NCBI GenBank assembly: GCA_020072765.1
Contig: JAIQGD010000011.1
Span: 1-39,907, forward strand
Length of the DNA: 39,907 nt
Source: Terriglobia bacterium
GTDB lineage: Bacteria; Acidobacteriota; Terriglobia; Acidiferrales; UBA7541
Reading direction: 5' to 3'
The first letter of the stretch is position 1, and the number at the start of each line of letters is the position of its first letter. Below the pieces are notes generated by a model. The model was not told the DNA's origin. It did not search any database and saw only the letters and a list, made by a program, of their open reading frames with translations. Positions 967 to 33,958 of the stretch are shown here, piece after piece. The position numbers and the translations under genes were made by a program.

Positions 967-1042
<76 letters not shown>

Positions 1043-1065
1043 TCTTCCTCTTTAGCTTCATTGCC

Positions 1066-1404
1066 TTACGCAGTTCTTGCCGACAACTCACTTTGGGTGC
1101 AATTAGGTGCAACAACGGTATCCGAGGTCGGAAGCTCGAAGCCAATTCCCACTTGCTCCGCGACCTTCTTACGGAACGCCACGTCCTCCTTCAACTTGCT
1201 GTAGTCGTCCGTGACGCTCTTATTCGCGTGGCCGAGCCAGAAACGAATCAAGTCTTCTGGCGCGCGTTGCTTCCTCAACCATGTTGCGCGGAACCTCCTG
1301 AATGCGTGGGCACCTGACTTCGGCAGTTTCACTTTCTCAAGAAGTGGATGTAAGGAATCATACGACTCCGGACCTATTGTGCAAGGCGTCGGGATGCTCG
1401 CCAC
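1066..1404 (-). pseudogene. Tyrosine recombinase/integrase, C-terminal relict
   Basis: About 100 residues match the C-terminal catalytic part of a phage-type tyrosine recombinase. HAFRRFRATWLR supplies the H-x-x-R box, FWLGHANKSVTDDY supplies the GH motif and the nucleophilic Tyr, and a VGIGFELP-type tail follows. The N-terminal arm- and core-binding domains and the first catalytic Arg are missing. The open frame starts inside a foreign piece, the signal-peptide gene overlapping at 1358-1480. Its stop lies 24 bases from the tRNA. It is therefore a dead remnant of the enzyme that inserted the island. The exact junction with unrelated sequence, roughly 1340-1400, cannot be fixed by eye. Confidence 0.8.
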
Positions 1405-2511: not shown

Positions 2512-3906
2512 TTGGGAACCCGTACTCTCTTCGTTCTATTGCTACTGGGCTGTTCGGTTGCCGCACAGGGCGGCGAACATCCGGTGCCGCTGTCTGCCGA
2601 TTTTGATCCCGCCAAGTGCGTCGAATGCCACCGAGATCACACGGAGGGAAAGTACGTCCACACGGCAATCACCCTTGGGTGTAACGCTTGCCATGAAGTC
2701 AAAATCGAAGGCGCGGTCACATCGGTCACCACGATCGCCAAGGGCAACGCTCTGTGCGTGAGCTGTCATACAGACAAGGACAAAGCGGAAGCAAAGGGGA
2801 CCCTGCATCCGCCGGTGGCCCAGGATTGCACGAAGTGCCACAGTCCGCACAGCTCGCCGTACAAGTTCCAGTTATTGAAAGAACGCTCCGGCGGGCCCGC
2901 CGAAAACCTTTGTCTCGGCTGCCACGATAAAGGAGTCAACGTCCCCGACAAGGGCAGCCGGCACATCGCGTTGGATATGGGTTGCGATACCTGCCATGTG
3001 ACGCACAAGACCGGCGAGCCGGGGAAGAAGGAATTCGATTTCCACCTCACCAAGTCTCCTCCCGCGCTGTGCCTGGATTGTCACGATGCCAGCGACAAGA
3101 CGTTGAAGGAGGCGCATCACAACCAGCCGTTCGAGAAAGCGGATTGCACCGAATGTCACGATCCGCACCAATCTGCGTCACCCAAGCTGTTACAGAAGTA
3201 TGTCCACTTCCCCTTTGGCGAAAAGATGTGCGAGGTGTGCCACCAGCCGGCCAAGGACGGAAAAGTGGTTCTGAACGAGGACGGCAAGTTCGCGCTCTGT
3301 TACACGTGCCACGACGAGATCAAGAAGGTGGTGGAAACCTCCAAGAACCAGCACCTGGCATTTGCCGTGACCGATCGCTGCACCACGTGCCACAGTCCGC
3401 ACGCGAGCCAGTATCCGCGAATGCTCAAGCAACCGGTGGCCGTGTGCGAACAGTGCCACGAGGATCGCGCCGAGGAGCACCGCACGAAGAAATTCTTGCA
3501 CCAGCCGCCGTTCAAGGACGGCTGCTACATCTGCCACCAGCCACACGGGTCCGAAAATCCCACTCTCTTGCGGGCGGCGCAAGTCAATGACATTTGCCTG
3601 ACGTGTCATAGCATCACCCCGCGCGTCGAAATGAAGCCCGGCTCGGCGACGATGACCCTCTTTTCGAACGTGACCTTGCCGGACGACTACCTGGACTCCG
3701 TCAAGCACATCGACGTGAATTCCAGCGGGAGGGGCCACCCCATCGGCAATCACCCGGTCTCCGGGATGCCCGATCCGTCGAAGCCCGGCAGCGCGATTAA
3801 CTGCATCAGTTGCCACGATCCGCACGCCTCGGACTTCACTAAGAGAATGTTCCGGATGAAGCAGGGGCAGAAGGTCGTGTGCCTGAAATGTCATGGAAAG
3901 CAGTAG
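2512..3906 (+). CDS. Multiheme c-type cytochrome, 16 haem sites, exported
   Basis: A 464-residue exported cytochrome with 16 CXXCH sites spread evenly along the chain. Many are in the doubled form CHxPH (CHSPH, CHDPH, CHQPH), which marks bis-His haem wires such as the cytochrome c3/NrfB-like families. The start is TTG at 2512, after GAGGCGAG. It gives a signal peptide MGTRTLFVLLLLGCSVAA. LLGC resembles a lipobox, so the mature protein may be a lipoprotein; cleavage near AAQ is the alternative. It is the first gene of the plus-strand series and follows two CRP-type sites. It probably carries electrons between the periplasm and the outer-membrane conduit. Its exact side of the membrane is unknown. 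Confidence 0.92.
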   Translation: MGTRTLFVLLLLGCSVAAQGGEHPVPLSADFDPAKCVECHRDHTEGKYVHTAITLGCNACHEVKIEGAVTSVTTIAKGNALCVSCHTDKDKAEAKGTLHPPVAQDCTKCHSPHSSPYKFQLLKERSGGPAENLCLGCHDKGVNVPDKGSRHIALDMGCDTCHVTHKTGEPGKKEFDFHLTKSPPALCLDCHDASDKTLKEAHHNQPFEKADCTECHDPHQSASPKLLQKYVHFPFGEKMCEVCHQPAKDGKVVLNEDGKFALCYTCHDEIKKVVETSKNQHLAFAVTDRCTTCHSPHASQYPRMLKQPVAVCEQCHEDRAEEHRTKKFLHQPPFKDGCYICHQPHGSENPTLLRAAQVNDICLTCHSITPRVEMKPGSATMTLFSNVTLPDDYLDSVKHIDVNSSGRGHPIGNHPVSGMPDPSKPGSAINCISCHDPHASDFTKRMFRMKQGQKVVCLKCHGKQ

Positions 3907-3919
3907 AGGAGTGTCCGCC

Positions 3920-5038
3920 ATGAAAGAGACGAGATGGTTTCGGTGGGTCGCGCTGGCGCTGGTGAGTGTGACGCTGGCGGGATCACCGGTCTGCGCAGCC
4001 GACAAGAAGAAGACGACAAAGCCGGTTGTGGACATCAACCGCGTCTGGCCACCACCTCCGCAGAAGGCGCACTTCAAGCTGCTGCAAATCATCAATGGGG
4101 AAGGCGACGTGGTCGGAAAGAAAAAGGTCAGCCTGTTGTCGCGCATCGTGGCGGACGAGTCGGCTCCCAGCTACATTCATTTCAGCCGCCCCTATGCTCT
4201 AGCGGGGGATCGTCACGGCAAGCTGTATGTCACCGACACGCAATTATCCTCCCTTTTTGTCATTGATCCCAAGGACCGCAGCTTCAAGGTATTTGGAGCG
4301 GATGCCGACGTGCAACTCAAGCTGCCGTTGGCGGTTACGGTGGATAGCGACGACCGGGTGTGGGTTGCCGACGGCGCTATGAAGAGCGTGCTCTGCTACA
4401 GCTCGGATGAAAAGCTGCTGTTGCAGTTCGGCAGCGACCCGGGGACGCCCGCGGCGCCCGTTCCCACGCTGGAGCGGCCCACCGGCGTGGCCTTGGACGA
4501 ACGCCGGCAGCGCGTCTATGTCTCCGATGCCAAGCTGAACAAGATTTTCGTTTTCACGACGAGCGGAAAATTCGTCAAGCAACTCGGCAAGGGCGGTTTT
4601 GAGCCCGGGGAGTTCTTCTTTCCCGGCCAGTTGCTGGTGGATTCCAGCGGCCGGCTGTACGTCGTGGACACCCAGAACGCGCGCGTGCAGATCTTCGACC
4701 CGGACTTCAACGTCCTCAAGGTCATTGGCAAGCGTGGCGATGGCATCGGCGCTTTTGCCCGGCCCAAGAGCATCGCGCTGGATAGCCAGGGCCATCTCTA
4801 CGTGAGCGATGCCTGGTGGCACAACATCCAGATCTTTGGACACGATCCCCGCGTGAAGGATCCCAACGAACTCTCGGTGTTGCTCTTTATTGGAGAGGGC
4901 GGGACCAGGCCGGGCGATTTTCAGGGCCCCGCCGGCATTTATATCAATTCGTACGATCAAGTTTTTGTCGCCGACCAAATGAACAGCCGCATTCAGGTTT
5001 TTCAGTTTCTGGGCGGAGACGAAGAGCAGAAGAAGTAG
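3920..5038 (+). CDS. Exported NHL-repeat six-bladed beta-propeller protein (first copy)
   Basis: 372 residues. A Sec signal peptide (MKETRWFRWVALALVSVTLA, cleaved near VCAA) is followed by the WPPPPQKAHFKLL entry motif and about six NHL-type blades. These repeat units such as GVALDERRQRVYVSDAKLNKIFVF and LVDSSGRLYVVDTQNARVQIF. NHL propellers are non-enzymatic binding platforms. ATG 3920 is chosen over the in-frame ATG 3893 because AGAGGA precedes it and the signal peptide begins there. It starts 13 bases after the 16-heme gene and ends 77 bases before the tetraheme gene. From its company I infer a periplasmic or surface factor for cytochrome or filament assembly. A paralogue lies at 9166-10218. 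Confidence 0.9.
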   Translation: MKETRWFRWVALALVSVTLAGSPVCAADKKKTTKPVVDINRVWPPPPQKAHFKLLQIINGEGDVVGKKKVSLLSRIVADESAPSYIHFSRPYALAGDRHGKLYVTDTQLSSLFVIDPKDRSFKVFGADADVQLKLPLAVTVDSDDRVWVADGAMKSVLCYSSDEKLLLQFGSDPGTPAAPVPTLERPTGVALDERRQRVYVSDAKLNKIFVFTTSGKFVKQLGKGGFEPGEFFFPGQLLVDSSGRLYVVDTQNARVQIFDPDFNVLKVIGKRGDGIGAFARPKSIALDSQGHLYVSDAWWHNIQIFGHDPRVKDPNELSVLLFIGEGGTRPGDFQGPAGIYINSYDQVFVADQMNSRIQVFQFLGGDEEQKK

Positions 5039-5987: not shown

Positions 5988-6941
5988 ATGAGAGTATTGA
6001 TCGTATGGATGTTGTGCTGCACCGTGGTGGTGGGCGCCGGCACGGCCAGCCTGCCGCAATTGCCTGCCCAGCAGGTGGTCGCCCGCGTCAATGGGGTGGA
6101 GCTGCGCGGCGCCGCCTTGAATGACTACGTGCAGGCAGTCTTCCCTGATTTCTCTTTTCACGGCAAAATCCAGCCCGAGAAGCTCAACGTGTATCGCCGG
6201 GCGGCGCTGGACCGCATGGTGCTGCATGAATTGATTTACCAGGAAGGCGTGCGGCGGAGGATTGCCGTACCGCCCGCGAAAATCGATGCCGAAGTGGCGC
6301 TCATGCGGGGCCGGTTCCGTTCCCCCGAGGCCTTCGAGCACTCCCTGTCGGAGCACGGTCTGACCCTGGACCAGTTGCGCGCCCACATTCGACGCAGCAT
6401 GGTGATCGCGGCTGTGGTCCGTCGCGATGTCACCGCACGTGCGGTGGTGACCGACCAGGAAGTCCACGCCTACTACCAGAAGAATTTGCCGCGCTTTCAC
6501 GAGCCCGAAGTCGTCCACGTGCGCGAGATCTCCATCCCGCCGGGTCCGCTGGCGGCCAAGCAAGCCGGCGACGTGCGCGCCCAGGCCGCCGCCAAGAACA
6601 CCAGCGCCCAATTCGATCTACTGGCTTCCCGCTACTCGAAAGATGATTACCGCGTGATGGGCGGCGACCTCGGCTGGGTCCATCGCGGCGGTATGGACCC
6701 GGAATTAGAGAAGACCGTCTTTGCCCTCCGCCTAGGTCAACTCAGTCCGGTGATTGAGACGAAGACGGGATTTTATCTCCTCCGGGTGGAAGGCAAGCGG
6801 CCGGCGCGGCTGGTGCCCTTCACTGAGATGAGAGGCAAGATTCGCAGCCAACTGATCGCCGAGAAGAGGAAGCAGCTGAGTGAGGCTTTGCGTGCGCGGG
6901 TTGCCAAAGATGCCAAGGTGGAGCTCCTGGCCAAGTTTTAG
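5988..6941 (+). CDS. Periplasmic PpiC/SurA-like peptidyl-prolyl isomerase
   Basis: 317 residues: a signal sequence (MRVLIVWMLCCTVVVGAGTA), a SurA-type N-terminal helical chaperone region (about 30-170; VARVNGVELRGAALNDYV then LDRMVLHELIYQEGV) and one parvulin domain (about 172-270). The latter is recognised by VVHVREISIP, FDLLASRYSKD, GGDLGWVHRGGMDPELE and TKTGFYLLRVE. Proteins of this kind hold and fold outer-membrane beta-barrels and exported proteins. AAGGAGC precedes the ATG. It sits directly before the beta-barrel gene, whose ATG touches this stop codon, so it is probably the dedicated folding factor for the barrel and perhaps the cytochromes. Confidence 0.92.
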   Translation: MRVLIVWMLCCTVVVGAGTASLPQLPAQQVVARVNGVELRGAALNDYVQAVFPDFSFHGKIQPEKLNVYRRAALDRMVLHELIYQEGVRRRIAVPPAKIDAEVALMRGRFRSPEAFEHSLSEHGLTLDQLRAHIRRSMVIAAVVRRDVTARAVVTDQEVHAYYQKNLPRFHEPEVVHVREISIPPGPLAAKQAGDVRAQAAAKNTSAQFDLLASRYSKDDYRVMGGDLGWVHRGGMDPELEKTVFALRLGQLSPVIETKTGFYLLRVEGKRPARLVPFTEMRGKIRSQLIAEKRKQLSEALRARVAKDAKVELLAKF

Positions 6942-8996
6942 ATGGTCGCCAAATGCCAATTCGGCAGAGCACGAGCCTGGTTGCTGGCCGCTTTTCTGGT
7001 CGCGCCATGCGCCGGGCGCGCGCGGGCCCAGAACGCCCCCGGAAATCTCCCCTGGGGCGCGGCGCCTTCCAGTAACGCGCCCACCACCCAGCAAACAAAT
7101 GAGCAGGGCGGCAGACACCTGGCACCCGCCCTTGCCGGCGAGATGTTCCGCCATCTTTACGGCGCCGCCTATTTCGGATTCGACAGCACGGGTTCTGACT
7201 CCAGCCGGACGAGCACCGACGATTATGGCTTCAATCTGAATAGTAGCGGGTATTTGCTGGACCCGCGTCTGTGGACCCAGGTGATGAGCGTGGACTTCGA
7301 CCACCTCGGTGGAGGTTCCGGCGGTGCATCGCGGAATCTGGGCTTCCATCTCAATGGAACGCTGCTGCGCAGCCGGTCGTTTCCCCTGCGCGTCATCGTG
7401 GTCCGCCGCATGGCCGATGCGAACTCCTTGGGAGTCGAGAACCACAGCAACTATGACAGCCTGACCCTGGACTGGGCGCTGCGCCAACCCAAACTGGCCA
7501 ATATCGGCATCTCCGCGACGTTCGGGGGAAGCTCGCAGGAGACCTCGCAGAGTATGCCCTTTCCCGTGGTGCCCTTTCGGGAGAGGGATCAAAGCCTCAA
7601 CGGCCAAATCACTCGTATCATCCGAGGCTGGTCCCTCATGGGATCGGCCTACCGTGTGCGCATGCACACTTCGCAGCAGGATCTCCGGGAGGAGATCGGC
7701 GGACGCCACTTTCAAGTGGAGCGGCGCTTGCGCGTGGGCGAGAAGGGATACTTCCAGACTTCTCTGCGGCACGACCAGCGCAGCGATTCCCGGCGCAGCA
7801 GCAATCTGAGTTTCACGGCCCCCTCCACGAGCATTTTGCTGAATCGGGCGCAGGCCACCTTCGGGTATCAGCACACAAAGAAGTTCCGGGGCTCTTACAG
7901 CGCTGGCTATACGAGCAACCTCAGTGAGGCGGCCATTTCTTCGGCGTTACTGTCCTCGACCGGTGCGGGAGCAGGCTCGCCCGTACAGCTGGATCCCGGC
8001 CTGAGCCAGGCGCTCGCCTTGCGTCACACAAGTTCGTCGCTGGGCATCAATGGGGGCTGGACCTACAACGTGACACCCCGCTTGTTCTTTGGCGGAAGTG
8101 TGGGCCAAACGTTTCTGAACTCCCCCGACCGCCTCTTCAGTATTCCTGTCGCCAACAATCAAATCGGCTTGCTGAAGTCCTACACCAGCCTCGGCGGAAG
8201 TTTCGGCTACCAGCGAAACTTTGGCAAGTGGGACACGAGCTGGCGCGGCAGCCTGACGCACGATTGGGATTATCGCCGGCGGGGCCCTGCATTTGGAGAG
8301 GATTCGCGGTCGTTCGGAGTGGACGTGAGCCGGGGTTTTCGTGGCTGGGTGTGGACCTCCGATCTTTCCTATACCGACTTCGTGAGCGGGCAGACCGGGG
8401 CTCGGCTGTATAGCGAGGAACGCTGGGTGAACACCCTGAAGACGCACCTGAATCCTCGGCTTACGCTCGATTTGGGAGCCGAGATCCTGCATCTGGATAC
8501 GAATCTCACGTCTTTGCTGCTGCGTAACCCGAGTAGCGGCACGGCGCTGTTGCGTGACACGAGCAGGGACACGGCGCTGCTGCTGCATGGAGCCCTGTCC
8601 AGCCGGCGCTGGAACGTGGCTGGTGGCTCGGGGTTGCGTAATGCGAACTCGATGGCCCTCGCCTTGGACGTCACCAATCCGCTGAATACCATCTTGCTCA
8701 GCCAGTTCACGCCGCTCGCCAACACCCTGGCCACCGCCGATCATTATGCCGAGGTATTCGGCAGTTATACTCCGCGGCACAATTTGAGCTTCAACGGCGC
8801 CTATCGGCGCGACAACTTCCGGATCCTGGAGGCCGATCTGAGCCGCTATAGCGGCATGGAATTCGGCGTCGAATATCACCTGCGGAAATTGACGGTCGAG
8901 GGCGGCTATCAACGACAACACCAGCAGACGGGAAAGGCGAAGTACGGCCGTGACCGCTTCTATGTGCGCATCCGGCGGCCCTTCCGGATCTACTAG
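6942..8996 (+). CDS. Outer-membrane beta-barrel protein, porin of a porin-cytochrome conduit
   Basis: 684 residues with a signal peptide cleaved near RARA (residue 29) and no haem sites. From about residue 60 onward the chain alternates short amphipathic strands with Gly/Asn/Ser turns (for example FFGGSVGQTFLNSPDRLF, SLGGSFGYQRNF and WRGSLTHDWDY). It ends in FYVRIRRPFRIY, with a C-terminal aromatic residue, the usual outer-membrane insertion signal. Length and context fit the large barrels that sheath multiheme cytochromes in porin-cytochrome complexes of Geobacter type. Sequence similarity to a named family is not claimed. The ATG abuts the ppiC stop, so the two are translationally coupled. 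Confidence 0.85.
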   Translation: MVAKCQFGRARAWLLAAFLVAPCAGRARAQNAPGNLPWGAAPSSNAPTTQQTNEQGGRHLAPALAGEMFRHLYGAAYFGFDSTGSDSSRTSTDDYGFNLNSSGYLLDPRLWTQVMSVDFDHLGGGSGGASRNLGFHLNGTLLRSRSFPLRVIVVRRMADANSLGVENHSNYDSLTLDWALRQPKLANIGISATFGGSSQETSQSMPFPVVPFRERDQSLNGQITRIIRGWSLMGSAYRVRMHTSQQDLREEIGGRHFQVERRLRVGEKGYFQTSLRHDQRSDSRRSSNLSFTAPSTSILLNRAQATFGYQHTKKFRGSYSAGYTSNLSEAAISSALLSSTGAGAGSPVQLDPGLSQALALRHTSSSLGINGGWTYNVTPRLFFGGSVGQTFLNSPDRLFSIPVANNQIGLLKSYTSLGGSFGYQRNFGKWDTSWRGSLTHDWDYRRRGPAFGEDSRSFGVDVSRGFRGWVWTSDLSYTDFVSGQTGARLYSEERWVNTLKTHLNPRLTLDLGAEILHLDTNLTSLLLRNPSSGTALLRDTSRDTALLLHGALSSRRWNVAGGSGLRNANSMALALDVTNPLNTILLSQFTPLANTLATADHYAEVFGSYTPRHNLSFNGAYRRDNFRILEADLSRYSGMEFGVEYHLRKLTVEGGYQRQHQQTGKAKYGRDRFYVRIRRPFRIY

Positions 8997-9165: not shown

Positions 9166-10218
9166 ATGCGGCTCTCACGGTCTTTGAGATCACACGTACT
9201 CAAATTTCTGCTTGCCGTGGCATTGTTGGACTGGCTCAGTGCCCGCCCTTCGCAAGCCCAGGTATGGCCTTCGGCTCCCGATACTCCACGCATCCGCTAC
9301 GAAGGAAGTTTCCGCAAACTGGATGACGGCGCGAAGCGCGCCTCGTTCTGGCACCGGCTGTTGAATGTCATGGTGGGTGCACCACCGAACTACAGCATGG
9401 TCCGGCCGTTTGGCATCAGCACGGATCCGCAAGGGCGCATTATCGTTGTGGACACGGAACAACGCATGGTTCATGTGCTGGACTACGCTCGCCACCGCTA
9501 TCTGCATCTGGCCGGCAATTCCAAGGAACGCTTCGTTTCGCCGATTGGCGTGGCGCTGGACGAGCACGGCGATATCTTCGTCACGGATTCTTATTTGGGA
9601 AAGATCTTCGCGTTTCGGCCCAATGGCAAGTTCTGGCGCTTGCTCGGCGATGTGCGCGGGGAAGGAATGTTCAAGCGTCCCACGGGGCTGGCCTACGATT
9701 CGCAGCGCCATGTTTTTTACTTGACCGACACCTTGCGCGACAAAATCTTTGTTCTCGATCCGGAGGGGCGCGTGTTGCGCAGCTTCGGCGAACGCGGCAC
9801 CGAACCCGGACACTTCAACTATCCCGTGGCGATCGCCTTATACTACGACTCCCTGTACGTGGTTGACGCGATGAATTTTCGCGTTCAAGTCTTGGACTTG
9901 AAAGGGACTCCCCTGACGCAGTTCGGAATGCCCGGTGACGGCTCGGGTAGTTTTGCAAAACCAAAGAGCGTCGCGCTGGATTCCGAAGGCCACGTCTACG
10001 TGGTGGATTCCTTGTTCGAAGTGGTGCAAGTGTTCGACCGCAACGGACGTTTCCTTCTGGCGTTCGGCGGCACCGGAACGGGCCCCGGCCAATTCGAACT
10101 GCCCACCGGAATTTATATCGATCCGGCCGACCGAGTTTACGTCTCCGATTCGTTCAATAGCCGGGTGCAGGTCTTCCAGTATCTGAAGGCCGCCCCGGAT
10201 GAGCCGGGGGAACAGTGA
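9166..10218 (+). CDS. Exported NHL-repeat beta-propeller protein (second copy)
   Basis: 350 residues, paralogous to the protein at 3920-5038. Both have a VWP-x-P entry motif, the same blade pattern and endings SRIQVFQFL and SRVQVFQYL. The ATG at 9166 gives the signal peptide MRLSRSLRSHVLKFLLAVAL, cleaved after SQAQ. Upstream in-frame starts would place the signal inside the protein. Blades such as GVALDEHGDIFVTDSYLGKIFAF and SVALDSEGHVYVVDSLFEVVQVF are clear. A 169-base gap separates it from the barrel gene, and its TGA overlaps the ATG of the 12-heme gene. Each propeller gene therefore directly precedes a cytochrome gene of the same module type, which suggests a matched assembly or binding partner. 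Confidence 0.9.
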   Translation: MRLSRSLRSHVLKFLLAVALLDWLSARPSQAQVWPSAPDTPRIRYEGSFRKLDDGAKRASFWHRLLNVMVGAPPNYSMVRPFGISTDPQGRIIVVDTEQRMVHVLDYARHRYLHLAGNSKERFVSPIGVALDEHGDIFVTDSYLGKIFAFRPNGKFWRLLGDVRGEGMFKRPTGLAYDSQRHVFYLTDTLRDKIFVLDPEGRVLRSFGERGTEPGHFNYPVAIALYYDSLYVVDAMNFRVQVLDLKGTPLTQFGMPGDGSGSFAKPKSVALDSEGHVYVVDSLFEVVQVFDRNGRFLLAFGGTGTGPGQFELPTGIYIDPADRVYVSDSFNSRVQVFQYLKAAPDEPGEQ

Positions 10219-12212
10219 TGGGGCGCCTCCGCTTGTACGGTTTGGTGTTCTGGGTCATTTGCGCGACCACGCTGCTGTTTGCTCAGGACAACGGCAAGCA
10301 ATATATTCTAGATTCCTCGCACAATCTGTCGGTTTCGGGGCCCGGGCCCGTCAAGGCATCCACGGAAACACAAGTCTGCATTTTTTGTCACACGCCCCAT
10401 AGTGCGAGTCCAGCTGCCGGTTTGTGGAACCACGTAGGATCGGCGGTGACTTATCAGGTTTATAGCAGCACGACCATGAATGCGCCCACGGGCGTGCCCA
10501 CACAAGCTTCCAAGCTTTGCTTGAGCTGTCATGACGGGACCATCGGGCTGGGCCAGACCGTGGGCAACGGGAACATCAATGTGGCCGACACCAGCGGGAC
10601 ACTGCTGGACCCGGATACGAGTTTCTCTTCGACAGCCTCGCCAAATCTGGGCGGCGCGTCGGGGAGTGAATTGCTGAATGATCACCCGTTCTCGTTCGCC
10701 CCCATTCAGGATGGTTTGCTCGTCGCCGGCGTGACCAACAGCCCTCCCAACCCTTCCGTCCCGGAAGTTCAGTTGCGGAATGGCGCCATCGAGTGCATCA
10801 GTTGCCACGAGCCGCACCGCCAGGATCTGGATGCCATCACCCGGAAATTCCTGGTGGGCAGCAACGTGGGTGGAAGACTTTGTCTGGCTTGTCATCAGCA
10901 GTCCCTGGCCAACAATTATTGGAATCTGGCTTCGCACAATACATCCGCCAAAACAACTCCCACGGTTCCCGCCAGTAGCTGGGCCGGGTATGGAACCGTC
11001 GCGGGTGACTCCTGCATGGCCTGCCACGCGACGCATTCGGCTACCGTGAACCAGCGGCTGTTGCGGGCTCAGGAGGAAAACACCTGTTTCCTGTGTCACG
11101 GCAGCAGCAACACCATCGCAAGCTACAATATCCAGGCGGAATTCAACAAAGTCGGCAGCGTTGCGGGAGTCATCAAGTACGCGCACCCCACCGTTGCGGT
11201 TACGCCGAGTGTTCATGACCCTGCCGAGCTTCCACCGCCCATCAATGGCTATCCGAGAGCCACCGCTCCGGCCATGCCGGAAACCAGTCCGGGGCAGCCA
11301 CGCCATGCCGAGTGCGTGGATTGTCACAATCCCCACGCTGCCAATGCAACCGGGGCCGCTGCTATCCCCCCGGCGGTGCCCTCAAACATGAATAGTGTTA
11401 CGGGTGTCAGCGGTACCGCGACCGATGGCCGCACGCCGGTCACGCCGGCGGCGTATGAGTACCAAATCTGCTTCGTTTGCCATGGCGACAGCGCCAACAA
11501 GCCCCAAAACACCAGTTATTCCGATTACGGGCGTACCGTTTTCCGGCAGACGTATGCGACGGTCAGCGATCCATTCAATGAACGTTTGGATTTCGCCTCG
11601 ACCGCTTCCAGGCACAACGTCACTCAGGCCCGAGCGGCCATCTCGGTTCCCAGCCTGCGGAATTACATCCTCAACCTCGACGGCAGCACGGGACGTTTCC
11701 TGGGATCTGGCACCTACATCTACTGCGCGGATTGCCACAACAACGACCAGGCGCGCGGTTCCAAGGGCCCCGGGCCGAACGGCCCTCATGGCAGTATCTG
11801 GTCGCATCTGCTGGAACGCCGGTACGACGTGGAAGGCCCGCCATCGGTTCCAGGCGCCAACGATGGGCAGACGGTGAACTCGGGAACCGTTGCCCCGGGG
11901 ATCGCCACCACCAATTATGCCCTGTGCGACAAATGCCACGATGTCGCTGCGCTTCTGACCGATGCGACCTTCAAGCACAGCGTACATGTCATCGGTGCGG
12001 GAGCCTCTTGCTCGACGTGCCACGCCGGTCACGGCATCCAGCAGCAGGTTGCGACGAATGGCAACACGAACAATCGGCTGTTGGATCCCGATACGAAGAT
12101 TGTGGGTCCCGTCCCTTCGGGCACCTATGCGGGTTGGCTGGTGATGAATACGAACACGCGGACCTGCTATCTGCAATGCCACGGAACCACACACACCGGG
12201 TCAACCTACTGA
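10218..12212 (+). CDS. Multiheme c-type cytochrome, 12 haem sites, with N-terminal tetraheme module
   Basis: 664 residues: signal peptide (MGRLRLYGLVFWVICATTLL, cleaved after FAQ), 11 CXXCH sites and one CXXXCH (C650-Y-L-Q-C-H655). Residues about 30-230 repeat the tetraheme protein's order: SHN, CIFCHTPH, LWNH, YQVYSS, CLSCHDGT, DHPFSF, CISCHEPH, LCLACH. Eight further haems follow, in a part rich in Ala, Thr and Pro linkers. Stop and start overlap as TGATG with the propeller gene, so ATG 10218 is preferred to the GTG three bases earlier. It is the last gene of the series. I infer a surface or filament-associated terminal cytochrome. Alternatively it is the extracellular partner of the barrel. 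Confidence 0.9.
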   Translation: MGRLRLYGLVFWVICATTLLFAQDNGKQYILDSSHNLSVSGPGPVKASTETQVCIFCHTPHSASPAAGLWNHVGSAVTYQVYSSTTMNAPTGVPTQASKLCLSCHDGTIGLGQTVGNGNINVADTSGTLLDPDTSFSSTASPNLGGASGSELLNDHPFSFAPIQDGLLVAGVTNSPPNPSVPEVQLRNGAIECISCHEPHRQDLDAITRKFLVGSNVGGRLCLACHQQSLANNYWNLASHNTSAKTTPTVPASSWAGYGTVAGDSCMACHATHSATVNQRLLRAQEENTCFLCHGSSNTIASYNIQAEFNKVGSVAGVIKYAHPTVAVTPSVHDPAELPPPINGYPRATAPAMPETSPGQPRHAECVDCHNPHAANATGAAAIPPAVPSNMNSVTGVSGTATDGRTPVTPAAYEYQICFVCHGDSANKPQNTSYSDYGRTVFRQTYATVSDPFNERLDFASTASRHNVTQARAAISVPSLRNYILNLDGSTGRFLGSGTYIYCADCHNNDQARGSKGPGPNGPHGSIWSHLLERRYDVEGPPSVPGANDGQTVNSGTVAPGIATTNYALCDKCHDVAALLTDATFKHSVHVIGAGASCSTCHAGHGIQQQVATNGNTNNRLLDPDTKIVGPVPSGTYAGWLVMNTNTRTCYLQCHGTTHTGSTY

Positions 12213-12723: not shown

Positions 12724-12773
12724 TCGGCTGTTAGCCGAAGGGTTGCCAGTTCGAATCTAGCCCGGGGAGCCAT
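12724..12773 (+). repeat. Right attachment repeat (attR), displaced tRNA-Asn 3' half
   Basis: This copy matches 993-1042 at 48 of 50 positions, including the anticodon loop, T arm and CCA. There is no 5' half, so it is not a tRNA gene. One of the two changes (12747, T to C) breaks a T-stem pair, as expected for the displaced, unselected copy. It marks the right border of the island. Confidence 0.8.
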
Positions 12774-23034: not shown

Positions 23035-25029
23035 ATGGGAGTCAAACTGCCGTCCGTGCGCCGCACCGATTCGCTGTACGCCCAGCTGGGCGGAAAGGCG
23101 AACATCGCCGCGGCGGTCGAAAAGTTCTACGAGAAAGTCCTGGCGGACAAGGAGCTGCAGCCGTTTTTCGCCAAGACGAACATGACCTGGCTGAAGATGC
23201 GCCAGACGCAGTTCATGACGCAGGCGCTGGGAGGTCCCGCGGAGTACAAGGGCCGCTCGATGAAGTCGGCGCACGCCCAGCTGCTCATCGAGCCGCGGCA
23301 TTTCGAGCGGGTGGGGACGCATCTGGCGGTGACACTGACCGAACTCGGCGTGCCGCCGCAAGTGGTGGATTCGGTGATGGAAAAAATCGGAGGACTACAG
23401 GAGGAGATCGTGACCGCGAAGAATCATGAAGTGGGGGAGACCGGGCAGGGCCTGACCATGGCGCAAACGCAGGCCATGCTGGAAAATTCGCCGATCAACA
23501 TCATGCTGGCGGATTTGGACATGAAGATCATCTACGTGAATCCGGCGTCCGAGAAGCTGCTCAACGTCATCGAGAAATTCCTGCCGGTGAGCGCCGACAA
23601 GGTGCTGGGCTCGAGCATCGACATTTTCCACAAGAACCCGGCGTACCAGCGGAAGATCCTGAGCAACCCGAGAAACCTGCCCCACCGGTCGAACATTCAG
23701 ATCGGCGATCAGACGGCCGACTTGCTGGCCACGGCGATCTACGACGAGAAGAACAACTACGTCGGCCCGATGATCACGTGGTCCTTGATCACCGAGCAGT
23801 TGAAGATCGAGACGGAGATGTCGCGCGTGATGTCCATGATGGAGAACGCGCCGATCAACATCATGTCCGCCGACGTGGATCTGAAACTGCAGTACCTGAA
23901 TCCGGCGGCCAAGAACCTCATGAAGAAGATCGAGCAGTATCTCCCGATCCGCGCCGATCAAATGGTCGGCACGCCCATCGACATCTTCCACAAGAATCCG
24001 GAGCACCAGCGGAAATTCCTGGCCAACGACCGCAACCTGCCGTTCACCACGCAGATTTCGATCGGCCCGGAAACGTTCAGCCTGCAATGCAGCGCCATCT
24101 ACGATCAAAACAAGAAATATCTGGGTCCCATGGTCACCTGGGAGCACATCACGGAAAAGCTGGCCATCGAGGCCAAGGTGAGGGAAGCGGCCGAGCGCGA
24201 GAAGAAGCAGATGGAGGAGCTCAAGACGACGATGGCGACGGTGGCCCAGAACGCTTCGGGACTGGCGACGGCGTCGGAAGAACTCACGGCCGTGAGCCAG
24301 CAGATGAGCACCAACGCGGAAGAGACCGCTTCGCAGGCCAACGTGGTCTCCGCCGCTTCCGAGCAGGTGAACCGCAACCTCCAGACCGTGGCCACCGGCA
24401 CCGAGGAGATGAGTTCCAGCATCAAGGAGATCGCCAAGAACGCGGCCGATGCGGCCAAGGTCGCCAGCGAAGCGGTGAAGATCGCCCAATCGACCAACGC
24501 CACGGTCGGCAAGCTGGGCGAATCGAGCGCGGAAATCGGCCAGGTGATCAAGCTGATCACCTCCATCGCGCAACAAACCAACCTGCTGGCTCTCAACGCC
24601 ACCATCGAAGCCGCGCGGGCGGGTGAAGCCGGAAAGGGTTTCGCCGTGGTCGCCAATGAAGTGAAAGAGCTGGCGAAGGAAACCGCCAAGGCCACCGAGG
24701 ATATCAGCCGGAAGATCGAGGCGATCCAGAGTGACACCAAGGGCGCGGTGGACGCCATCGGGGCCATCGGAGCGATCATCAATCAGGTGAATGATTTCTC
24801 CAACACCATCGCCACGGCCGTCGAGGAGCAGAACGCCACGACGAACGAGACGACGCGCAACGTCAACGAAGCCGCCAAGGGCGCCGCCGAGATCGCCAAG
24901 AACATAGCCGGCGTGGCCGAGGCGGCCAAGAGCACATCCCGCGGGGCGGGCGATTCGCAGAAGGCGGCGCAATCGCTGGCCTCGATGTCCGCCGAATTGC
25001 GCGGGCTGGTCGGCCGGTACAAGTTCTAA
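23035..25029 (+). CDS. Soluble chemoreceptor: truncated haemoglobin-PAS-PAS-MCP
   Basis: 664 residues with no membrane segment or HAMP domain. Residues 12-125 match group I truncated haemoglobins: [17 protein letters not shown] with B10 Tyr32, ALGG, and proximal His80 in MKSAHAQL, followed by HFERVGTHL. Two PAS domains (149-250 and 269-370) are tandem copies sharing [30 protein letters not shown] and GPM-x-TW. The MCP signalling region (400-664) has the hairpin tip [28 protein letters not shown]. It probably senses O2, NO or CO by haem and signals to CheA through CheW. AAGGAG precedes the ATG. No CheR-tethering pentapeptide occurs at the C-terminus (GRYKF). Confidence 0.93.
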
Positions 25030-28267: not shown

Positions 28268-29488
28268 ATGAGCCAGGGATCATTCGTGGAAAGCGAACGG
28301 GTGGCAGGCGAATCGAAGAGCCGCGGCGCGGGGGCGCGTTCGGCGGCAGGTAGGTCCTTTCGACCGGCGGGCGTCGTCGTGCGGGGCGCGGTCTATGGCG
28401 GAAGCGGCTATGCGGATGAGACGCTGGCGGTCGTTTTGGGACTGGCGCGTCGCGGGATTCCCGTTGAGCTGCAGCCCATGTACATGCACACCGACACGAT
28501 GTCCCTGCTGGCTCCGGAGGTGCGGGACACGCTGGAGGTGCTCAAGCTGCAGCGCGTGGACCCGGCGCGCAGCGTGCTGTTTCAGTGCTTGACGGCTCAC
28601 GACTTCAGTCGCGACTTATACGCCCGGTGCCGGGTTGGCCGCACGACGTTCGAAACCGACCGTCTGCCGGTGGGTTGGCTGGAGGCCTGCCAATCCATGG
28701 ACGAGATCTGGGTGCCGAGCCAGTTCAACCGCGAGGTTTTCGCGGCGGAGGGCGTGGAGGAGAACAAATTGAAAGTCCTGCCGGAAGGGGTGCACGCCGA
28801 AATCTTCCGGCCGGATGTCGAGCCCCTGGATATTCCGCACCGGCGCGGCTTCAACTTTCTTTCCATCTTCGAATGGACGCAGCGGAAAGGGCCCGAACTC
28901 CTGCTGCGCGCCTACCTGTCGGAATTCCGCGCCGATGAAGATGTGGCGCTGATCATCAAGACCTACGCACGGCCGGACCCTCGCACCGAGATCCTGCCGC
29001 GGCTCGCGCATTTCGTGGAGCGAGAAATGGGCCTTCCGCTGGAGAAGGCGCCGGCCATCATCGTTCTGCCGGGATTCATGAGAAACGAAGAAATCCCCCG
29101 GCTGTACCGCGCCGCGGACGCCTTCGTGCTCCCGAGCCGGGGCGAAGGATGGGGCCGCCCTTACATGGAGGCTTTGGCTACGGAGTGCCCGGTCATTGCC
29201 AGCCGTTGGAGCGGCCAGACCGACTTTCTTCATGACCGGAACAGCTATTTGATCGACTGCAAGGTAGTGCCGGCGCCGGCCAACATTGATGTGGAACTCT
29301 ACGCAGGCCACTGTTGGGCCGAGCCCGACTTCGAGCAACTCCGGCACTTGATGCGCCACGTCTTCACCCACCGGGAAGAAGCCAAGTGTTTGGCCGTGCA
29401 AGGCCGGCGCGAAATGACCGAGCGCTGGGACTGGAACATCGTCGTCGAACAATGGGTGAACGAATTTCTGCGTCTGCTGGGGGATTGA
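28268..29488 (+). CDS. Glycosyltransferase, GT4-type
   Basis: 406 residues. A glycine-rich N-terminal stretch (VYGGSGYADETLAVVLGL) begins the acceptor domain. DEIWVPSQFNREVF and VLPEGVHAEIF follow, then the donor domain with FNFLSIFEWTQRKGPELLL and the E-x7-E motif EGWGRPYME. This is the GT-B fold of retaining GT4 enzymes that transfer sugars from nucleotide donors. It has no signal or membrane segment, so it acts at the cytosolic face. GGAGAGGC precedes the ATG. Two related genes follow, the last with the same DELWVPSKFVR region, which implies a joint surface-glycan or protein-glycosylation pathway. The sugar and acceptor are unknown. Confidence 0.88.
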   Translation: MSQGSFVESERVAGESKSRGAGARSAAGRSFRPAGVVVRGAVYGGSGYADETLAVVLGLARRGIPVELQPMYMHTDTMSLLAPEVRDTLEVLKLQRVDPARSVLFQCLTAHDFSRDLYARCRVGRTTFETDRLPVGWLEACQSMDEIWVPSQFNREVFAAEGVEENKLKVLPEGVHAEIFRPDVEPLDIPHRRGFNFLSIFEWTQRKGPELLLRAYLSEFRADEDVALIIKTYARPDPRTEILPRLAHFVEREMGLPLEKAPAIIVLPGFMRNEEIPRLYRAADAFVLPSRGEGWGRPYMEALATECPVIASRWSGQTDFLHDRNSYLIDCKVVPAPANIDVELYAGHCWAEPDFEQLRHLMRHVFTHREEAKCLAVQGRREMTERWDWNIVVEQWVNEFLRLLGD

Positions 29489-29515
29489 TGGTGACTTCGC
29501 GACCGAGGTGAGCCT

Positions 29516-31618
29516 GTGCAACTCGCCGAGCTGCAACGCAATTGGAACGAATTCGGCAGGACGGATCCCCTATGGTCCGTGCTGACCGATGCGCGCTTCA
29601 AAGACAACAAATGGGACCCGGTCGCTTTCTTCAAAACCGGCGAGCAGGAAGTGGAGTCCGTGCTAGCGGGCCTGACGGCCCTGGGAGTGACAATGCCCCG
29701 CCGGCGGGCTCTCGATTTCGGCTGCGCTGTGGGAAGGCTCACGCAGGCATTGTGCCGTCACTTCGAGCGGTGCGATGGCGTGGACATCGCTCCGTCCATG
29801 ATCGATCTAGCCAGAGAATACGACCAGTTCCCCAGCCGGTGCCACTACCATCTGAACGAAGCCGACGACCTGGCGCTGTTCCCGGACAACACGTTCGATT
29901 TCATTTACTCCCGGCTCGTGCTGCAGCATATGGAACCGCGCTACAGCAAGAAATACATCGCGGAATTCGTGAGGGTGCTGGCTCCGGGAGGCGTTGCGTT
30001 CTTCCAGATTCCCGCCGGACCGCCGGCGCCCGGCCAAGAACCGCCCAGGGAGTGGGCGCTGCCCGAAGCGGGATTCCGGGCCTCCATCGAGATCGACAAC
30101 ATGCCGGCCACGCTCGAAGCAGGCTCGCCGCATGACCTGCAAGTGCGAGTCACGAATAGCAGCCCGGTCGCTTGGCCTCGCGGGCAGCATTCGAGCGGGC
30201 GCGACGTGATCGTACTGGGAAATCACTGGCTGTTGGCCGACGGGAAACCGTTCACCCCCGACGACGGTCGGACCGCCCTGACCGATGGTTTGCGGCCATC
30301 GGAAACGGCGTATGTTCCGCTGCGGGTTATCGCTCCCACTGCGCCGGGAAGCTACCTTCTCGAACTCGATATGGTGCAGGAAGGGGTGAGCTGGTTCGCG
30401 CCGAAAGGTTCTCGAACTTGCAGGATAAAAGTGGACGTCTGCAAAGGCGCAGGCGCGCAGCCCGTGGAAACGGCGCCGGTGATGGAGATGTACGGCGTAC
30501 CCCAGCAGGATGTTCTCGGCGTGGTGGAGGCAGCGGGGGGCCAGATCGTCGCCGTTCTAGACGATCACTCGGCCGAGCCCTTGCTCAGTTACCAATACGT
30601 GGTCACGAAAACCAAGGCGCAGCAGAAACCAGCGCCTGCGCCCGCGGGTCGAGTCGCCGCGGCGCCTAGCGGCATTCCCGATGGAGGCAATCCGGAAGCA
30701 GATGAAGCATTGTTATTGCTCAATGGTCTCGCGCAGCATGCCGCGCTGCAGGCCCGCGTGAGCGAAGCGCTCGCCAAGCGTCTGCTGGGGATCGAGCGTC
30801 TGGTTCGTGAGACGCACGAACTGGTCAACCACGTGGGCGCAGGCGTTCCTACCGGCGGGCGGTTTGCCGTCTATCAGGGGAACAACCTGGCCCTGACGCG
30901 CATCCTGAATCGTTACAGCATGTACGTGGACACCACCGACGTCAGCATCGGGCCGCACTTGATCACGCACGGGCAGTGGGAACCGTGGATCACCAGCCTC
31001 TTTACACGGCTCCTCCGACCGGGAATGACCGCCGTGGATATCGGCGCGAATTTCGGTTACTACACGATTCTGGCCGGGTTTGCCGTGGGCGCCACAGGCA
31101 GGGTCTACGCTCTGGAAGCCGATCCCCGCAACTACGAAGTACTCCAGCTGAACCTCACCGTCAATGGGCTCCTGGACATCGTGCAGTCGCGGCAGTGCGC
31201 GGTGCTGGATGCGAAAAAGCGTGTGGAGCTGCGCCGCAATCCTACGCTTCTCGGTTGCCACAGCTTGTTTGCAGGGGAACAGGGAAGCGCCAGGAATGTT
31301 TCGGTCGAGGCCTTGCCGCTGGACGAGATCATCCCCGGCAGTGTGGATTTCATGAAAATTGACGCGGAGGGCAGCGAGCCGTTCATCTTCGATGGGATGC
31401 GCAACGTGCTCGAGCGCAGCCCGCAAGTGAAAATCATCATGGAGTTCAACGTTCCCGTGCTGAAGCTCGCCGGTGTGGATCCCGCGAGTTTTCTGCGGAA
31501 GATCCACGATCACCATTTCACGGTGTCGATCATCCCGCGCGAGGGGGATTTGGAACCACTCAACGAGCAAAAGCTGCTCGATGGCCCGCTGTATGACCTT
31601 CTGTTGATCAGGAAGTGA
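29516..31618 (+). CDS. Fusion of class I SAM methyltransferase, Ig-like region and FkbM-type methyltransferase
   Basis: 700 residues. The first methyltransferase (about 55-190) has motif I ALDFGCAVGRLT (65-76), the acidic DIAPSMI loop and FDFIYSRLVLQHME. A central beta-rich region (about 195-320; NSSPVAWPRG and PGSYLLELDMVQEGVSWF) resembles an Ig-like domain, and a Pro/Ala linker with helices follows. The second methyltransferase starts near 504 with VDIGANFGYYTILAG and continues YALEADPRNYEVLQLNL, SVDFMKIDAEGSEPFIF and IIMEFN, the FkbM pattern. Both probably O-methylate sugars of the product made by the flanking glycosyltransferases. The start is GTG at 29516 after GAGGTGAG. The gene lies 27 bases from its neighbour. 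Confidence 0.88.
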   Translation: MQLAELQRNWNEFGRTDPLWSVLTDARFKDNKWDPVAFFKTGEQEVESVLAGLTALGVTMPRRRALDFGCAVGRLTQALCRHFERCDGVDIAPSMIDLAREYDQFPSRCHYHLNEADDLALFPDNTFDFIYSRLVLQHMEPRYSKKYIAEFVRVLAPGGVAFFQIPAGPPAPGQEPPREWALPEAGFRASIEIDNMPATLEAGSPHDLQVRVTNSSPVAWPRGQHSSGRDVIVLGNHWLLADGKPFTPDDGRTALTDGLRPSETAYVPLRVIAPTAPGSYLLELDMVQEGVSWFAPKGSRTCRIKVDVCKGAGAQPVETAPVMEMYGVPQQDVLGVVEAAGGQIVAVLDDHSAEPLLSYQYVVTKTKAQQKPAPAPAGRVAAAPSGIPDGGNPEADEALLLLNGLAQHAALQARVSEALAKRLLGIERLVRETHELVNHVGAGVPTGGRFAVYQGNNLALTRILNRYSMYVDTTDVSIGPHLITHGQWEPWITSLFTRLLRPGMTAVDIGANFGYYTILAGFAVGATGRVYALEADPRNYEVLQLNLTVNGLLDIVQSRQCAVLDAKKRVELRRNPTLLGCHSLFAGEQGSARNVSVEALPLDEIIPGSVDFMKIDAEGSEPFIFDGMRNVLERSPQVKIIMEFNVPVLKLAGVDPASFLRKIHDHHFTVSIIPREGDLEPLNEQKLLDGPLYDLLLIRK

Positions 31619-31642
31619 GCTGCCACCGCAGGAGGAGTGGAC

Positions 31643-33958
31643 GTGCCCATCTATGTCGTTGCCCCACGAACCGGGGTCGTCAAGCACGTTTGCGAGCGCA
31701 GTCCGAAGGTCGCCGTCGCAACCGATGCGCGCACGCCCGAGCGGCTGCCCGCGGCGATCCATTTGGCCGGAGATATGTTGTGGACCGAGGAGTTGGCCGA
31801 TGCGTTTGCTGGAAAGGTTCCGGCCGGGCTGGATGGCGTGATTATCCACCTCGAGGGAGAGAAACTGCTTCACGGCGAGGCGGCGGACGTTCGTCGATCT
31901 CTGCTGTTCACGCCGGGCCGGCTTTCCCACGTAGCCGTGCACCTGCCGGGAGTAGCAGGTGCGGACCTGATCAGCGTGCAACCGCGAGCGTTTTCCGCCG
32001 GAGCCAGCCAAGAGCATTTGAATCTCAGTTGGCGCTTGCAGGGACCGAACGTGCTCTCCAGCGAAGCTCGGGCGGCTCTGGAGCGAAATGCCCAGCCCTG
32101 GGCGCGGTTGTATCGTGCGCTGCTGGAAGAACAGACAGGGCCGGGGGCGTGTATCGAAAGCCTTAAGAAGGTCTCGCGAATCTCAGGGCTCGAGCCCATG
32201 CTGGCCGCGCTGGCGTTGCGCAACTTGATCGTGGTCCTCTTGAGAAAGCGCGATTGGTCGAAAGCCGAGGAACTGCTCCGATTGGGAATCAAGGCCTACT
32301 CGGATTATGCGGAACTCCACTATCTGACCGGGCTGCTGTGGGTGCAGCGAAACCGGCCGTCGCAGGCCATCCCGTTCCTTGAGGAAGCGATGCGCCATCG
32401 GAGCGATGGGTTCCTCGGCGGCGGCGGCGAGAACGCCTACCGCGCGGCTTGGTTGCTCGGGTCGGTTTACGATTTTGCGGGAGACCAAGGCAGGGCGGTC
32501 AACTATTGCGCCCCGGGGCTGTATACACGGCCCGCGTTCCGGCCGTCGGTCGAACTCCTTCTTAAACAGCGCATGGCGTCCGACATCGCCGCGACGTACC
32601 GCATTCCACTTTGTGAGATTGCCAGACGCGAGCCGCAGTACTTCCAGCCCGTATTCGATTTCCTGCTGACACACCGCCTGCTGGAGGCGGCCGATGTGCT
32701 TCTCGATACCTCGCCGTTGGCCGAGGACGTCCTCCAGAACTTACGCCAGCGGTTGCAAAACGTCGCACGTCCCTTCCTGGCGCGAGAGGGGAACGATTCC
32801 ACCAGATCCGGTGTCATTCTCCGAGGGCCTTTGTTTGCCCATTCCGGTCACGCGCGCATCAATCGCGCCATCGGGCAGGCCCTGGTCCAGTCGGCCCATC
32901 TGGACGCCAGTCTGGAAGTGCAGGGCTGGAATTCAATCCCGCCCTTCTTGTTGCCGCAGGGTGAAACGCTGCAAAAGGCAACGGAGCGCTCTCCGCGCCA
33001 TCTGGATTTGACGATCCGTCATCAATGGCCGCCGGATTTTCGGCGTCCTCGTGCGGGGAAACTGGCGTGCATTCTTCCCTGGGAATACCGCGCCGTGCCT
33101 CGCCCGTGGGTGCAGCAGATCGAGCGGAGCGTCGACGAACTGTGGGTGCCATCGAAGTTCGTGCGGTCCGCGTTTATCGAGGGCGGTGTTGCGTCGACTC
33201 GCGTGCACGTCGTTCCCAACGGTGTGGACGCGAAAGTGTTTGGTCCGCAAGGCAAGAGCTGGCGTCCGGAAGGCAGTCGCGGGTTCGTATTCTTGTTCGT
33301 CGGCGGGACGATCGCGCGCAAGGGCATTGACCTGCTTCTGCAGGCCTATGGAGATTCGTTTGCGCCGGAGGACGACGTCACGCTGGTGATCAAGGACGTT
33401 GGCTCGGCAAGTTTTTACCAGCACAACACGCAGCTCGCGCAGGTCCTCAGCTTTGCCGGCCAACCGTGGTCGCCGCGCGTGGTGACGATCAGCCGGAATC
33501 TCGAGGACGAGCGTCTGGCGGAGCTCTATCGCGGCTGTGACGCTTTCGTGCTGCCTTACCGGGGAGAAGGTTTCGGAATGCCGATCGCCGAAGCGATGGC
33601 CTGCGGCAAACCCGTGATTGTGACGGGAGAAGGGCCAGCCCCGGAGTTCTGCCCATCGGATTGCGGCTACCTGATTCCCGCGCGCGAAGTGATGGTTCCT
33701 GATCCTGCTCCGCCGCTGGGCGAACTGACGGGCGAGTGGACGTGGTTCGAGCCCGATATCGTCGCCCTGGCCCGCACGATGCGGGAGGTTTACGAGCAAC
33801 GCGGGGAAGCCGCGGAGCGCGGACGGAGAGCGGCGGCGGCCATTCGCGACACGCTTACCTGGGAGCGGGTGGTGCCCATGTATTTGGAGAGAATCGCGTG
33901 CCTCACCGGCGCGGACCGGGCGCGCGCGGCTCAGCCCTCCGCGGACTCCGGGGGTTGA
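31643..33958 (+). CDS. TPR-containing glycosyltransferase, GT4-type
   Basis: 771 residues. The first 130 residues are an unrecognised domain. A TPR-like helical region follows at about 160-370 (WSKAEELLRLGIKAYSDYAELHYLTGLLWVQ). Then comes a GT-B glycosyltransferase whose donor half has DELWVPSKFVRSAF, VPNGVDAKVF, FLFVGGTIARKGIDLLLQAY and the E-x7-E motif EGFGMPIAE. GTG 31643 is preferred to GTG 31637 because GGAGGA ends six bases before it. The TPR part may hold a protein or polymer acceptor, as in large protein-glycosylating enzymes. The link to flagellin or pilin is only suggested by the chemotaxis neighbourhood. Confidence 0.85.
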   Translation: MPIYVVAPRTGVVKHVCERSPKVAVATDARTPERLPAAIHLAGDMLWTEELADAFAGKVPAGLDGVIIHLEGEKLLHGEAADVRRSLLFTPGRLSHVAVHLPGVAGADLISVQPRAFSAGASQEHLNLSWRLQGPNVLSSEARAALERNAQPWARLYRALLEEQTGPGACIESLKKVSRISGLEPMLAALALRNLIVVLLRKRDWSKAEELLRLGIKAYSDYAELHYLTGLLWVQRNRPSQAIPFLEEAMRHRSDGFLGGGGENAYRAAWLLGSVYDFAGDQGRAVNYCAPGLYTRPAFRPSVELLLKQRMASDIAATYRIPLCEIARREPQYFQPVFDFLLTHRLLEAADVLLDTSPLAEDVLQNLRQRLQNVARPFLAREGNDSTRSGVILRGPLFAHSGHARINRAIGQALVQSAHLDASLEVQGWNSIPPFLLPQGETLQKATERSPRHLDLTIRHQWPPDFRRPRAGKLACILPWEYRAVPRPWVQQIERSVDELWVPSKFVRSAFIEGGVASTRVHVVPNGVDAKVFGPQGKSWRPEGSRGFVFLFVGGTIARKGIDLLLQAYGDSFAPEDDVTLVIKDVGSASFYQHNTQLAQVLSFAGQPWSPRVVTISRNLEDERLAELYRGCDAFVLPYRGEGFGMPIAEAMACGKPVIVTGEGPAPEFCPSDCGYLIPAREVMVPDPAPPLGELTGEWTWFEPDIVALARTMREVYEQRGEAAERGRRAAAAIRDTLTWERVVPMYLERIACLTGADRARAAQPSADSGG

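Follow-up and report, generated by a model that had tools for sequence, protein, structure and literature searches.

OmcB-type outer-surface cytochromes of Geobacter carry twelve haems and have a barrel gene nearby. In the filaments of OmcE and OmcS, each interface has one haem that takes a ligand histidine from the adjacent subunit (PMC9473688; PMC12954529). A cluster named osc (omcS companion) has been described for OmcS filaments (Shen 2025, as described in PMC13194489), and the OetABI conduit of syntrophic sulfate reducers consists of a probable barrel and cytochromes that cluster with filament-type cytochromes (PMC10553843). Here we analyse a locus in the window, by which we mean the whole stretch of 39,907 nucleotides from a Terriglobia bacterium (contig JAIQGD010000011.1), where a 12-haem cytochrome that begins with an OmcE-type module is encoded in the same operon as an OmcE-type tetrahaem cytochrome. 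From sequence and from gene neighbourhoods in many phyla we predict for the 12-haem protein a dedicated role at the end of an OmcE-type filament, as its end-piece or terminating adaptor, a reading that we hold with somewhat better than even confidence. The literature searched, outside which the primary OmcE, archaeal nanowire and osc papers lay, contained no earlier description of this protein.

The 12-haem gene is the last of seven genes on the same strand (Table 1), and the tetrahaem gene lies 4.3 kb upstream of it. Its reading frame extends from the ATG at 10218 to the end of the stop codon at 12212, exactly where the initial annotation had placed it; the ATG overlaps the stop codon of the preceding NHL gene, and an alternative GTG at 10215 would add one residue. 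The 16-haem cytochrome at the head of the operon is likely to provide the periplasmic electron supply, given its presumed location. The 684-aa exported protein has no Pfam or NCBIfam match and is probably an outer-membrane barrel, judged by its size, position and terminal aromatic residue; C-terminal Phe or Tyr occurs in 45 of 58 ORFs at the barrel position. The gene order is retained in Acidobacteriota relatives, in some of which the isomerase was not recognised.

Table 1. Features of the nanowire operon, its flanks and the 12-haem gene (positions in the window)
Feature	Position	Strand	Remarks
Intact tRNA-Asn	967-1041		Left flank of the operon
tRNA-Asn and integrase C-terminal remnant	967-1404		Left flank
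Multihaem cytochrome, 464 aa, 16 CxxCH	2512..3906	+	TTG start; doubled-CXXCH repeats
NHL beta-propeller protein 1	3920..5038	+	Pfam NHL 1.4e-29
OmcE-type tetrahaem cytochrome, 269 aa	5116..5925	+	OmcE 7tfs E 9e-26; predicted filament subunit
SurA/parvulin-type prolyl isomerase	5988..6941	+	Pfam Rotamase_2 4e-20, SurA_N_3 2e-11
Exported protein, 684 aa, C-terminal Tyr	6942..8996	+	Probable outer-membrane barrel
NHL beta-propeller protein 2	9166..10218	+	Pfam NHL 6.6e-26; translationally coupled to the 12-haem gene
12-haem cytochrome, 664 aa	10218..12212	+	Signal peptide, no lipobox
OmcE-type putative docking module (residues 25-234, haems 1-4)	10290..10919	+	Within the 12-haem protein
His35 codon	10320..10322	+	Invariant (78/78); predicted ligand for haem 4 of the last filament subunit
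8-haem tail (haems 5-12)	10920..12209	+	Putative constant terminal unit; free protein in split loci
His240 codon	10935..10937	+	Invariant (78/78); predicted to ligate haem 4 of the module in cis
Haem 12 motif CYLQCH (CxxxCH)	12165..12182	+	Invariant in the family
Partial tRNA-Asn 3' end	12724-12773		Right flank; exact 26-bp repeat at 12748-12773

The whole operon between the tRNA-Asn repeats is probably an integrated island of 11.7 kb. G+C content is somewhat lower in the operon than to its right, and the 12-haem gene is absent from all 19 congeners; when these were searched for an empty integration site, the right flank of the island was found to be absent there as well. A chemotaxis cluster stands right behind the operon and includes a methyl-accepting chemotaxis protein whose N-terminal domain is a globin (23035-25029), possibly involved in oxygen or redox taxis. 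Glycosyltransferase and methyltransferase genes occur near the operon (28268-33958), and OmcE filaments have been reported to be glycosylated (PMC9473688).

The 12-haem protein contains eleven CxxCH motifs and one CxxxCH motif (CYLQCH, residue 650). Because C650, C654 and H655 of the latter are invariant in 78 homologues, twelve is the correct number of haem sites even though one of them departs from CxxCH, and the eight further haems that the initial annotation had counted behind the module are all present. The conservation of CxxxCH at haem 12 in 78/78 homologues may mark a special last haem.

Residues 17-227 match OmcE (7tfs) with E 9e-21 over the whole OmcE chain, so that the protein is homologous to OmcE throughout its tetrahaem module. 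The local alignment of the tetrahaem protein with residues 23-240 scores 190, compared with 53 ± 10 (maximum 99) in 1000 shuffled controls, in which all CxxCH cysteines and histidines were fixed in position. The remainder of the 12-haem protein scores only 65-68 against the tetrahaem, within the range of the shuffles. The motif order that the initial annotation reported for residues of about 30-230 is exact, the homologous region being about 25-234. A profile-profile comparison of the module with 56 tetrahaems gives 366 against 79 ± 16 in controls (maximum 105). An arrangement of three OmcE modules in a row finds no support in the sequence: a second module matches only at the haem 7-8 pair and a third does not score above its own control.

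An alternative would place the 12-haem protein inside a mixed filament, as a long subunit to which another tetrahaem could be added, at haem 12 or at some other site. The motif order of haems 5-8 (His, CxxCHxxH, CxxCH, HP, CxxCHxPH, CxxCH) is of the same kind as that of the module, and the haem 7-8 segment scores 94 against the tetrahaems compared with a control of 42 (maximum 49). The likeness between the tail and the tetrahaem is, however, not significant beyond this pair, and His659, which follows haem 12 by four residues and is kept in 75/78 homologues, should close that end. We regard a mixed filament as improbable.

The 12-haem protein and the tetrahaem are the only strong OmcE-type matches in the 3.78-Mb genome. 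A tree of 139 modules (78 from 12-haem proteins, four from split versions and 57 tetrahaems including OmcE) separates the 78 modules and the four split ones from all tetrahaems (98/97; the bootstrap had not fully settled). The module from the window groups with other 12-haem modules and the tetrahaem from the window with other tetrahaems, which rules out a recent local duplication of the tetrahaem as the source. The module had been called a copy of the tetrahaem module; the homology stands, and the sequences identify an ancient, separately retained homologue in place of a recent copy.

For their four haems, the 56 tetrahaems have four conserved distal histidines (H34 in 52, H65 in 55, H172 and H240 in all 56), and 54/56 have no histidine after haem 4, the chain usually ending one or two residues further on. 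By elimination, we infer that in OmcE-type tetrahaems the natural ligand between subunits is the N-terminal histidine. The tetrahaem in the window combines homology to OmcE, four CxxCH motifs, the N-terminal distal histidine and the lack of a histidine after haem 4, and this census makes its His34 the predicted inter-subunit ligand. The equivalents of the four histidines in the 12-haem module are H35, H61, H156 and H200, each present in 78/78 homologues. The module has in addition His240, which is located 8-21 residues after haem 4 in all 78 and is absent from the tetrahaem subunits. Because the chain does not end after haem 4 and continues with His240 and eight more haems, we do not class the 12-haem protein as a filament subunit. 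Across the full chain, about 16 histidines outside the haem motifs are conserved, about four more than 12 haems require; the ligand assignments in this protein are consequently ones that we infer, and counting does not by itself prove His35 to be free.

Further evidence on the histidine behind haem 4 comes from 18 loci of Geobacteraceae and Acidobacteriota in which a 4-haem protein and an adjacent 8-haem protein replace the 12-haem protein; the 18 splits are partly related by descent and do not represent 18 independent events. In the 4-haem part, the N-terminal histidine is retained and the chain finishes behind haem 4 with no histidine there. Behind its signal peptide, the 8-haem part starts with a histidine that precedes the first CxxCH by nine residues (PHIDR, PPHLDR, THLDG, SSHLDW, TPHMDP and similar starts). 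As the split 4-haem part lacks this residue and the 8-haem part possesses it, the histidine expected to close haem 4 is always on the downstream polypeptide, whether fused or split. One locus (L153) encodes a filament-type tetrahaem, a split 4-haem protein and an 8-haem tail together.

Homologues of the tail also occur without an OmcE module, next to OmcS-like hexahaem genes, at four loci. The hexahaems at L172 (on the same contig as L150) and L168 match OmcS with E 1e-14 and E 4e-7, respectively, while those at L174 and L170 score 126 and 74 bits against the L150 hexahaem, the latter without a PDB match. In the cases inspected, the part in front of the tail holds a histidine and about two haems. 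The presence of related tails with a two-haem front beside OmcS-like genes suggests that the 8-haem tail is a terminal unit that stays constant while its front differs with the wire. In G094, G095, G111, G067 and other Geobacteraceae, very large proteins of about 950-2500 aa include a segment akin to a portion of the 8-haem tail, and this portion thus appears to be a more widely used haem block.

The variable front also bears on the possibility that the 12-haem protein is a periplasmic adaptor loading electrons into the wire before or during its secretion. A signal peptide and no lipobox would suit a periplasmic protein, and secretion factors (the isomerase and the probable barrel) share the operon. 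The 16-haem cytochrome of the cluster (or cytochromes of 5 to 13 haems) would be a better candidate for electron loading, however, and a front that changes with the type of wire fits contact with the wire rather than supply. We consider a periplasmic adaptor to have little probability.

The distribution of the 12-haem protein was surveyed in a scan of 84,980 species genomes, which yielded at least 537 relatives, and 80 loci were kept. These belong to Acidobacteriota, Planctomycetota, Nitrospirota, Verrucomicrobiota, Bacteroidota, Pseudomonadota, Desulfobacterota, Gemmatimonadota and other phyla. An NHL gene is directly upstream of the 12-haem gene in 75/83 loci, often overlapping it by a few bases. 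An OmcE-type tetrahaem is also present in 59 of the 61 12-haem loci whose upstream sequence extends to 7 kb or more, and in the two exceptions (L047 and L102) it is found elsewhere in the genome. The scan patterns were derived from the OmcE-type module, which biases this co-occurrence, and as an unbiased test we searched 247 genomes of the phylum using only the tail profile. The tail was detected in 24 of the 247 genomes, and 21-22 of these 24 encode a separate tetrahaem; the association has p of about 3e-17 by Fisher's test, a statistic that ignores relatedness. Conversely, 17 of 40 genomes in this sample that bear an OmcE-type module have no tail. These two numbers together indicate that the 12-haem protein depends on the tetrahaem and not the reverse, and the second that the wire does not always need the tail. 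The question raised in the initial annotation, whether the two always co-occur, is thus answered in one direction only: the tail is nearly always accompanied by a tetrahaem, and the tetrahaem can occur without a tail.

Close relatives of OmcE (L146, L147) have no 12-haem gene beside the omcE-like gene. The best OmcE match among the Geobacteraceae genomes searched was 64%. In G063 there is no tetrahaem in the genome, but the 12-haem gene is interrupted. In a finished Acidobacteriota MAG chromosome (CP070706; L041, 8870-10870) the 12-haem ORF stops after six haem motifs and a tetrahaem was not found in the genome. A lone stretch of 136 bp in L032 (9998-10133; G000:C150:45997-46132) is 84.6% identical to 11641-11776 of the 12-haem gene and may be what is left of a second copy now lost, or a fragment that has recombined.

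The association with the tetrahaem is also relevant to a different scenario, in which the 12-haem protein acts by itself as the surface reductase of a porin-cytochrome conduit of the OmcB/Oet kind and the module is a relic kept for haem packing and not for docking. Like conduit clusters (PMC10553843), this one includes a probable barrel together with a 16-haem cytochrome and a large exported one, and neighbouring genes need not encode proteins that touch. However, a relic would not be expected to keep His35 invariant in 78/78 sequences when His240 is also present, nor the tail to be accompanied nearly always by a tetrahaem, and a lipobox, the mark of the lipoprotein cytochromes of conduits, is found in only 8/78 homologues with a loose pattern and is missing from the protein in the window. 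The conduit scenario appears unlikely to us.

Structure prediction adds little. AlphaFold modelled the 12-haem protein fairly well (pLDDT 74.6, pTM 0.78), though weakly in the module region, and the tetrahaem monomer poorly (pLDDT 52.1). A Foldseek search returned nothing at E 0.001, and the sole VIA-align match, an octahaem nitrite reductase (Z 3.4, residues 218-636), is uninformative.

These results lead us to propose how the 12-haem protein could terminate a filament. The tetrahaem would polymerise like OmcE, its N-terminal histidine serving as the sixth ligand for the last haem of the neighbouring subunit. The 12-haem protein would use its His35 to plug the haem-4 site left open at one end of the wire, and its His240 would ligate the module's own haem 4 within the same chain, leaving no place for a further subunit. 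His659 probably closes haem 12, and the wire would end there. The 12-haem protein is accordingly predicted to bind only one of the two wire ends. The 8-haem tail could then carry electrons to or from the wire, its partner being more likely an outer-membrane barrel/propeller complex at the cell surface than a distal acceptor. Because a propeller gene and a probable barrel gene constantly accompany the 12-haem gene, we lean towards a base at the cell surface rather than a distal tip. Of the roles suggested initially, that of a cap, base or linking subunit is well supported, if indirectly, by the neighbourhood in 59/61 loci, the genome-level association and the histidine pattern, with one docking ligand and haem 4 apparently closed; a branching subunit is not favoured, because only the N-terminal ligand is free in this scheme, with no second open site, and such a protein could only end a chain.

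It is possible that the same arrangement holds more generally, although we advance this tentatively. Nanowires may have a conserved end-piece, in which an 8-haem tail sits on a wire-specific docking module (OmcE-type in OmcE-type clusters, two-haem in OmcS-type clusters), gives the last histidine and seals the wire. If so, histidine ligation would govern how filaments terminate and attach, on one principle across many phyla. With its two named histidines and natural split versions, the conserved candidate end-piece lends itself to direct tests; it would also serve to mark functional nanowire clusters in metagenomes and might give a handle on wire length or attachment.

Among the described systems, the OmcB type resembles the 12-haem protein in its twelve haems and neighbouring barrel gene, but the latter carries an OmcE module and no lipobox, and we set the two apart by these features. 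The same operon content, a probable barrel and cytochromes together with a filament-type cytochrome, links the window to OetABI; OetB is described as a lipoprotein (PMC10553843), whereas the 12-haem protein has no lipobox. OmcE of Geobacter sulfurreducens (PDB 7tfs) shares with the 12-haem module four CxxCH motifs and the same pattern of distal histidines, but OmcE ends right after haem 4, whereas the 12-haem protein continues with His240 and eight haems and its modules form a separate lineage. The osc cluster, as presented in PMC13194489, has the same kinds of part that share one operon here, namely a filament cytochrome, a PPIase, a propeller and a channel-like protein; the likeness is one of part kinds, as in the window both the predicted wire and the front of its putative end-piece are of the OmcE type.
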